Of a stretch of 64,000 nt of DNA, positions 9,542 to 56,343 are shown one piece after another. Source of the stretch: Parvibaculum sedimenti (GTDB lineage Bacteria; Pseudomonadota; Alphaproteobacteria; Parvibaculales; Parvibaculaceae); assembly GCF_009184905.1 (NCBI RefSeq), contig NZ_WESC01000002.1, forward strand, positions 248,001-312,000, read 5' to 3'. The first letter of the stretch is position 1. Each line of letters opens with the position of its first letter. Under the pieces are notes generated by a model that saw only the letters and a program-made list of their open reading frames with translations, ran no database searches and was not told where the DNA came from. The position numbers were made by a program, and so were the translations under genes.

Positions 9542-10750
9542 ATGGCCACGACACTCGACATAGCGCACAAGCGGGACGAAGCGGCGGAAGCCGCCCCCGC
9601 GCGCGCGGCCAAAACGAACCTTCTCGGCCTGACCCGCGACGGCCTCGCCGAGGCGCTGCGTGCCTTCGGCCTGCCGGAAAAGCAGATCAAGATGCGCGTC
9701 GGCCAGCTCTGGAACGCGATCTACAATCGCGGCCTTTCCGACTTCGCCGACATGACGACACTATCCAAGGACATGCGCGCCCAGCTCGCCGAAGCCTTCG
9801 TGGTCGAGCGGCCGGAAGTCGTGGTCGAGCAGAAGTCGGTGGACGGCACGCGCAAATGGCTGATGCGTCTCGCCTCCGACAAGCCCGGCGTTCCCGGCCC
9901 TGAAATCGAGACTGTCTATATTCCCGAGGAAGGCCGCGGCACGCTCTGCATTTCGAGCCAGGTCGGCTGCACGCTGACCTGCACCTTCTGCCATACCGGT
10001 ACGCAAAAGCTCGTCCGCAACCTGACGGCGGGCGAGATCGTGGGCCAGTTGCTCGTCGCCCGCGATGCGCTCGGCGAGTGGCCGAATTCGGACCGCAATT
10101 CCGACGACCGCATGGTCACCAACATCGTCATGATGGGCATGGGCGAGCCGCTCTACAATTTCGAGAATGTGCGCGACGCGCTCGACATCATTTCCGATGG
10201 CGAGGGGCTCTCGCTCTCCAAGCGCCGCATCACGCTCTCGACTTCCGGCGTCGTGCCGATGATCGAACGCGCGGGCGACGAAATCGGCTGCGGCCTCGCC
10301 ATCTCGCTCCACGCCGTGAACAACGAGACGCGCGACAAGCTCGTGCCGCTCAACAAGAAATATCCGATCGACGAATTGCTCGACGCCTGCCGCAACTACC
10401 CCGGCCTCTCGAACGCGCGGCGCATCACCTTCGAATATGTGATGCTGAAAGGCGTGAACGACAGCCTCGCTGATGCGAAGGAACTCGTCCGCCTGCTGAA
10501 GGGTATTCCGGCGAAGATCAACCTGATCCCCTTCAACCCCTGGCCGGGCTCGCCTTACGAATGCTCGGACTGGGCGCAGATCGAGAAATTCGCCGATGTG
10601 GTCAATCGCGCGGGCTATGCGAGCCCCGTGCGCACACCGCGCGGCCGCGATATCATGGCGGCCTGCGGACAGCTCAAGAGCGAAACGGTGAAGAAGCGCG
10701 CCAGCGAGCGCTTCAGGGAAGAAAAGGCGGCGGCCCAGCCGACCGCCTGA
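9542..10750 (+). CDS. rlmN: 23S rRNA (adenine2503-C2)/tRNA methyltransferase
   Basis: 402-residue radical-SAM methylase that makes 2-methyladenosine at A2503 of 23S rRNA and at A37 of some tRNAs. The cluster motif CTLTCTFC has Cys143, Cys147 and Cys150. [10 protein letters not shown] is the SAM-binding strand, and AACGQL near the C-terminus holds the Cys that forms the covalent RNA intermediate with the conserved partner Cys. Start taken at 9542, with a GGCAGGA site upstream; the longer frame from 9443 adds an unconserved 33-residue leader. Length is slightly long because of a low-complexity Ala-rich N-terminus. Confidence 0.96.
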
Positions 10751-17061: not shown

Positions 17062-17176
17062 GGGGGCACCTCAATGTTGAGACGGGGGTGCCCAGGCGAG
17101 CGGCGGTATCTTCCTGCGCTTCCCGGTGGTCATGCCCACCTCGCCTCGCCAGTCACGCAGAACGGGGCGGATAATA

Positions 17177-55625: not shown

Positions 55626-55766
55626 GGCGCACGACGTGCGCCTCATAAGCGCGCCTAGTCATGCAATCACTTGCGATCTTGTCGGACTCAGATGCATAGA
55701 AAAGATTGCATGTGTGCAATTTGCGCTTGCGCGTTGAGTCCCAAGTGCAGCAATAATGATGCATGA

Positions 55767-55845: not shown

Positions 55846-56109
55846 TGGTGATCGCCACCTGACGGGGCGAAGCAGAGTCCTACGGTCCGCTAAAACTCAA
55901 AGGACATCTGTGTCGGCCAGCGGCGGGTGTGGGCACAAACGTGCTCATGCCTGCCGAGTCGATAGCGCTCATATGCTCGTACATGTACGCGCATACTTGC
56001 CTCCTATTCTCGAGATGGGATGAGCCCATCAACCCCGAATTGCACAATGCAACCCGCGCCGTACAGGCGCATTGCGGGCCTTCAGGAGAGAATCAGGTGG
56101 CGATCACCA
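55846..56109 (+). ncRNA. Candidate structured non-coding RNA (264 nt)
   Basis: A perfect 17-bp stem (55846-55862 with 56093-56109) encloses a chain of further helices. P2: 55872-55881 with 55901-55911 (10 bp, one bulge). P3: 55921-55936 with 55941-55956, 16 bp around an AAAC loop with four G-T pairs. P4: 55972-55981 with 55986-55995. P5: 56006-56011 with 56088-56093, enclosing P6 (56014-56019/56025-56030) and P7 (56049-56060 with 56066-56075, internal loop). The G-T pairs are stable only when transcribed as the plus strand. No open frame of protein-like composition covers it. No known family recognised; tmRNA tag coding is absent. A non-autonomous mobile element with 17-bp termini is the main alternative. 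Confidence 0.6.
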
Positions 56110-56153
56110 AAAACATGTTCTCTGCTTCGAGGGGTGCAGCGCAAGCAAAAGAC

Positions 56154-56171
56154 ATCCACACCTGTGGATAA
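56154..56171. promoter_or_regulatory. DnaA-box-like palindrome
   Basis: ATCCACA (56154-56160) and TGTGGAT (56163-56169) form a perfect 7-bp inverted repeat spaced by 2. The right half extends to TGTGGATAA, the complement of the consensus DnaA box TTATCCACA. Only one full box is present and no AT-rich unwinding region adjoins it, so a regulatory site is likelier than an origin. The rest of 56110-56343 holds no gene that I can see. Confidence 0.4.
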
Positions 56172-56343
56172 GCTCTTCCTACAAACTGCGCGGTATATGG
56201 CGAGTTCATACCAGCTCCCTCGCTTTGCCCCGCTATAGGCGCGGGCGTGGACGGCGCCTTCGCGCTCCTGCGGGCACTTTTCCCTTCAACTCCGGCGCGT
56301 CAAGACTCGCGAAGCGAACCGGAACGGACCGGAAACCCTGGCC

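Follow-up and report, generated by a model that had tools for sequence, protein, structure and literature searches.

A probable, patchily distributed small-protein gene with a likely end-paired, folded mRNA between acs and SdhAF4 of Parvibaculum sedimenti

The mRNAs of hok-like type I toxins fold back on themselves, and carry a small ORF in a transcript whose ends can pair. We describe here a locus of Parvibaculum sedimenti for which this arrangement is predicted. As first described, it lies between acs and SdhAF4, two genes named from their sequence by eye, in a stretch of 64,000 nucleotides referred to as the window. The likeness to hok has limits, since pairing of the ends is predicted for the alphaproteobacterial copies of the gene but is not convincing in phage copies. 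Moreover, while a hok-like toxin is a hydrophobic membrane peptide, the small protein encoded here is rich in arginine and histidine and is predicted to be all-beta. A second relative is PHROG 21154, a family of phage proteins represented by a profile of 47 positions, of which positions 17 to 45, approximately, are matched by the small protein. Unlike the members of this family, the 12 copies described here are chromosomal and are found within a long structured unit. The third system is PDC-M12A/B, a candidate defence pair of PADLOC whose PDC-M12A protein also matches the AbiLi and AriA models. This pair adjoins the small gene on two of the three plasmid loci tested, but no such pair was recognised by eye at the window. 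None of the PADLOC entries, judged by their descriptions alone, was recognised as the small protein, and no description recognisable as this gene was present among the titles and abstract openings in the literature. Genes as short as this are easily missed by annotation, and the sole family entry found for it is the PHROG, to which no function is assigned.

The original prediction was of a structured RNA on the plus strand, enclosed by a perfect long-range stem. The two arms of the closing stem (55846-55862 and 56093-56109) are indeed 17 nt long and 100% complementary, with 230 nt between them. The interior is filled, as had been claimed; the plus strand folds at -133.9 kcal/mol (z -7.2, with none of 200 shuffles as good), and this fold includes the expected 16-bp hairpin with four G-U pairs, counted by eye. 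The minus strand of the unit also folds far beyond shuffles (z -5.35). Comparison with 4227 Rfam covariance models gave no match inside the unit, either at gathering score or at E values up to 10. Identities as tRNA or tmRNA were rejected, as was 6S RNA, which was found elsewhere in the genome. Elsewhere in the window, Rfam identified a ZMP/ZTP riboswitch on the minus strand (17083-17166, 61.3 bits).

It had also been stated that no coding frame explains the stretch, and this proved to be wrong. The minus strand contains a 34-codon ORF from 55994 to 55890, with an ATG at 55994-55992 and a TAG stop codon at 55892-55890, and this ORF recurs in 12 accepted homologues. A Shine-Dalgarno sequence, AGGAGG, is located on the same strand at 56000-56005, 5 nt before the ATG, and reads CCTCCT on the plus strand. 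At 34 amino acids the product falls below the 70-aa cut-off of the ORF list first made in this analysis. A plus-strand loop acting as an anti-Shine-Dalgarno element had been considered but was abandoned, since the CCTCC of that strand is the Shine-Dalgarno sequence of the minus-strand ORF. This is a caution that a folded stretch carrying a CCUCC motif can simply mirror a small gene encoded opposite to it.

Fourteen covariance-model hits were read for an ORF, and the same small protein was encoded in 12 of them; the two without it were the weakest of the 14 (19.3 and 17.2 bits). Alignment of the 12 proteins, with start codons picked by the analyst, showed nine invariant columns (V, V, R, R, E, V, H, R and P), and an abundance of arginine and histidine was evident by eye. 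A Shine-Dalgarno-like sequence preceded the ORF in the four copies printed, namely the window's own copy (G000) and those of genomes G009, G240 and G428. Comparison of G000 with G009 gave a pN/pS of 0.29, with 12 of the 23 differences falling on third codon positions, and comparison of G240 with G428 gave a pN/pS of 0.14, with 5 of 7 substitutions at third positions. Substitutions in these two pairs point to purifying selection on the small ORF. The AlphaFold model of the protein (mean pLDDT 83.7, pTM 0.39) contained four short strands, with the C-terminal residues poorly modelled, and suggests a small all-beta fold. We are highly confident that the unit in the window is a coding gene.

Homologues were detected in several ways. 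A DNA search gave one clear relative, in G009, which is 76% identical and likewise placed between acs and SdhAF4. Covariance models built stepwise then led to full-length homologues in G097 and G159, followed by G240. A search of the order to which G240 belongs was positive in 6 of 18 genomes, G240 included, and added G428, G423, G432, G429 and G433. In the last family search 5 of 40 genomes had hits, of which G000, G009 and G011, the last with two copies, were accepted. The accepted homologues thus amount to 12 copies from four alphaproteobacterial families, a count that includes a partly circular step, in that the hits in G004 and G012 were dropped because they were weak and the ORF was absent. 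Other weak hits (G050, G019, G002, G013, G090, a second hit in G012 and low-scoring short matches) were not accepted and stand outside the 14 that were read for an ORF. The class-wide searches were each positive in at least 4 of 385 genomes, own genome included, with at most 4 candidates scored per genome; the four of the first such search included G090, which was not accepted. Up to 101 candidates per genome were scored in the order search and up to 45 in the last family search. Since so few candidates were scored per genome in them, the class-wide searches undercount, and none of these capped searches proves an absence. A pattern scan of genome contigs returned nine loci, of which only L068, on the same contig as the G009 copy, aligned along the unit, while pattern scans of viral contigs gave no match. 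DNA searches with the window's unit on plasmids and phages, and with three other copies on plasmids, also gave no match. The distribution of the small-protein gene is patchy. At the level of sequence, the ORF, its recurrence, purifying selection, a covarying stem and this patchy distribution are established.

We then considered the conservation of the fold. When ten copies were placed on the structural model, 88.6% of the cells were paired, compared to 68.5% in shuffles and 32-46% with slid partners. Changes on both sides were seen in 36 of the 53 pairs and, in at least one copy, in 11 of the 13 pairs of the closing stem (helix 1), as well as in 23 of the 29 pairs in the four helices that lie outside the ORF (helices 1, 5, 6 and 7), although the alignment was fitted to the structure and these figures therefore lean towards it. 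Helix 6, a hairpin of the 5' UTR at 56014-56030 with the arms GATGGG and CCCATC, showed two-sided changes in 4 of 6 pairs across the 10 copies. The 3' hairpin, which spans the stop codon and 3' UTR (55872-55913), corresponds to helices 2 and 3, and helix 3 had letters in only 3 of the 10 copies. The middle helix (helix 4) is constrained by the ORF itself. A sequence-based alignment of four copies likewise yielded the outer stem. Between the closest copies support from covariation is weak. For G240 and G428 two-sided changes are absent, 2 pairs show a one-sided change and 6 are broken in at least one copy; the corresponding counts for G000 and G009 are 4, 3 and 3. Most of the 11 copies whose energies were computed fold well beyond shuffles.

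The fold does not by itself reveal the strand. G-T pairs had been read as a sign of a plus-strand RNA, but this does not hold generally, because in 10 of the 11 copies folded it was the minus strand that reached the lower energy, with the window's own copy as the exception. The advantage of the minus strand was just 0.5 kcal/mol in G429, and the z-scores of the two strands tied or nearly tied in G000, G423 and a G011 copy (G011c1). The RNAalifold energy was better on the minus strand in all five sequence-based alignments, which are overlapping sets. When the structure that had been fitted to the plus strand was used as reference, there were more G-U than A-C cells (48 versus 26), which favours the plus strand. 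This excess, and the lower plus-strand energy of the window's copy, agree with the structured non-coding RNA on the plus strand that was initially proposed. That proposal is nevertheless very improbable, given the energies of the other copies, the identity of CCTCCT as the Shine-Dalgarno sequence of the minus-strand ORF and the purifying selection apparent in that frame. The part of the original prediction that stands is a fold conserved across four families with much covariation in structure-fitted alignments, while its assignment to a plus-strand non-coding class is probably wrong. Judged from these sequence comparisons, the transcript is probably the minus strand, as an mRNA for the conserved small protein, and it is very likely a structured mRNA under selection.

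An RNA with a dual function, in which a regulatory or protein-binding structure is the main function and a small ORF is also carried, would account for the two-sided changes in the helices outside the ORF and for folding well past shuffles in most of the 11 copies. However, the protein is the part most widely shared, since tblastn reaches plasmids and phages where DNA searches find none (plasmids were queried with four copies and phages with one), and several plasmid and phage copies show no clear closing stem. We regard a dual-function RNA as rather improbable.

The likely explanation is a patchily distributed small-protein gene with a folded, end-paired mRNA, found at times in defence or mobile loci. 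The mRNA would run from about 56109 to 55846 on the minus strand, and would comprise structured leader hairpins, the Shine-Dalgarno site, the 34-codon ORF and a 3' tail, with the closing stem, the 5' UTR helices and the 3' hairpin forming the predicted folded unit (55846-56109). Its 5' end would be the arm at 56093-56109, with which the 3' tail may pair back through the arm at 55846-55862, closing the message end to end. The 3' arm is followed on the minus strand by CCCGCTTTTT, and a terminator-like site at 55859-55844 overlaps it. The closing stem could limit or time translation, or it could protect the message. By analogy with hok-like mRNAs, control of translation through this folding back is plausible, in our estimate slightly short of an even prospect. 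The arginine-rich, predicted all-beta small protein would be the active product, and the gene may travel as a short cassette, at times inside mobile or defence loci. On the SdhAF4 side, a terminator-like hairpin with a T run is present at 56153-56170 on the minus strand, perhaps serving SdhAF4, and contains TTATCCACA, which we take to be a DnaA-box-like word.

Analysis of the flanking DNA showed an enrichment of GANTC, the CcrM site. The flanks of ten copies, 2,000 nt in all, contained 34 sites, and the 12,753 nt of intergenic DNA taken from elsewhere contained 32 (17.0 versus 2.5 per kb, p 2e-13). GANTC was the most enriched among the 16 palindromes of its form. A site was found within 8 nt of the likely 5' end of the mRNA in 8 of the 10 copies; the window's copy is without one. 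A guess from this motif would be a promoter tied to CcrM/GcrA in Alphaproteobacteria.

Mobility of the gene was suggested by its context. In the Parvibaculum genome G009, about 610 bp holding the gene are placed between two convergent stop codons, and G002 and G021, whose neighbouring DNA is 94% and 87% identical to that of G009, respectively, have only a few bases at this position. Genes for IS1595-type transposases adjoin two copies, one of the genes being truncated, and G011 has two copies of the unit. A functionless MITE-like element or transposon end, with the arms of the stem as terminal inverted repeats, could be expected to give such a picture. The extra segment in G009, however, extends well past the stem arms on both sides; no target-site duplication was established for the copies; and a conserved ORF with interior helices is unexpected for a MITE. 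The many dispersed copies such an element might have were absent, as a DNA search of the window's genome (3.7 Mb in 41 contigs) found a single copy. We therefore consider this explanation extremely improbable, and what remains of the suspicion of a MITE is that mobility is reasonable for a patchy gene with one copy in a present/absent segment. Membership of the unit in IS1595 elements was also considered and rejected, as only two copies had a recognisable transposase gene next to them, and no terminal inverted repeats of at least 13 nt enclosing both the unit and an IS1595 transposase were found in the stretches searched.

Several further features mark the DNA around the small-protein gene. 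Genomes G240 and G428 share a homologous stretch of 6.85 kb, which ends about 35 nt past the unit. At the window, a palindrome, GCGCACGACGTGCGC, is present at 55627-55641, on the far side of the unit and directly after acs. This palindrome (GCGCACGNCGTGCGC) occurs beside all four Parvibaculum copies and once in the 64-kb window. Among 115 fetched loci, 15 have an exact match to it, and every one of these bears the gene; it was not found beside copies outside Parvibaculum. The G+C content between acs and the unit is 47.5%, compared to 63.2% for the window. A 62-bp stretch at 56240-56301 is 85% identical to the interior of an ORF that occupies this place in G015, the genome with the SdhAF4 closest to that of the window. 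The G015 ORF has 168 aa and looks like a nuclease by eye, and the stretch in the window is probably a remnant. In G097, a 13-nt near-perfect direct repeat (TTGGATTCTAATG and TTGGATTCTGATG) flanks the unit (L094, near 9700-10020).

Relatives of the protein were found beyond the Alphaproteobacteria. Four of the 12 proteins were scanned, and all four matched the PHROG 21154 profile, with E values from 1.4e-3, for the window's own protein, to 3.5e-8; this family of unknown function was the only one matched. A tblastn search with the G159 protein gave 27 plasmid records at E values up to 0.1, 20 of which were listed, and 5 phage records at E values up to 1. The three phage records at 5e-4 or better represent two phages, since two of them are both phage Oslo. 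In a duplex test of low power, 2 of 60 shuffles were as good as the ends of the window's unit and 1 of 60 was as good as those on the E. coli plasmid. Shuffles did as well more often for the two phages (24 and 39) and for the plasmids of Pseudomonas (32) and Croceicoccus (49). Arms that match exactly were 9 nt long in the E. coli, Acinetobacter and phi-8 copies and 12 nt long in the Croceicoccus copy, and none were seen in phage Oslo or the Pseudomonas plasmid. The closing stem is therefore uncertain outside Alphaproteobacteria.

Several of these copies have defence-type neighbours. Among the three plasmids tested with PADLOC, those of E. coli (L116, 4.4 kb) and Acinetobacter (L120, 17 kb) carry PDC-M12A and B next to the small gene, which is on the opposite strand to the pair and unannotated in its frame. 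On the Pseudomonas plasmid an IetA-like ATPase is encoded near the small gene. The copy on the Croceicoccus plasmid has annotated multiubiquitin and ThiF genes in its vicinity, and that of Salmonella phage Oslo is near cI, N and sieB. Among chromosomal copies, that of G097 adjoins a dCTPase-type deaminase and that of G423 has a TIR protein one gene away, while the G240 and G428 copies come after a 173-aa ORF that gave no family match. At the window the neighbours are housekeeping-like genes by eye, and ordinary genes with no obvious defence locus were seen by eye beside the copies of G000, G009, G159 and G011, so that the defence link is not general. The gene names htpX, gyrB, glnD, murJ, purH and mnmE were assigned by eye, except for mnmE of G433, which was named by family match.

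We think that the likeliest role of the predicted small protein is related to defence, and tentatively suggest that it could be a toxic effector, a trigger or an accessory subunit. Should the protein act together with defence systems, it would supply several of these with a part that had been missing, and the folded mRNA would provide a testable infection switch. A bolder proposal is that tiny all-beta proteins of a family spread across the Proteobacteria, translated from mRNAs that close on themselves, serve phage-defence loci as a mobile third component. The message would be shut until infection disturbs it, and the protein would then trigger or arm a neighbouring ATPase, TIR or deaminase system, or act alone as a toxin. 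We consider this broader scheme unlikely as it stands.

An Rfam scan of five related loci gave one match, outside the unit, at 1891-1927 of L088; it is weak, at 27.3 bits below the threshold of the CRISPR direct-repeat family concerned. Three copies of the gene are adjoined by small proteins that, by eye, have a coiled-coil-like start and a winged-helix-like end (near 2184-2629 of L103, 3736-4185 of L104 and near 1960-2421 of L107).
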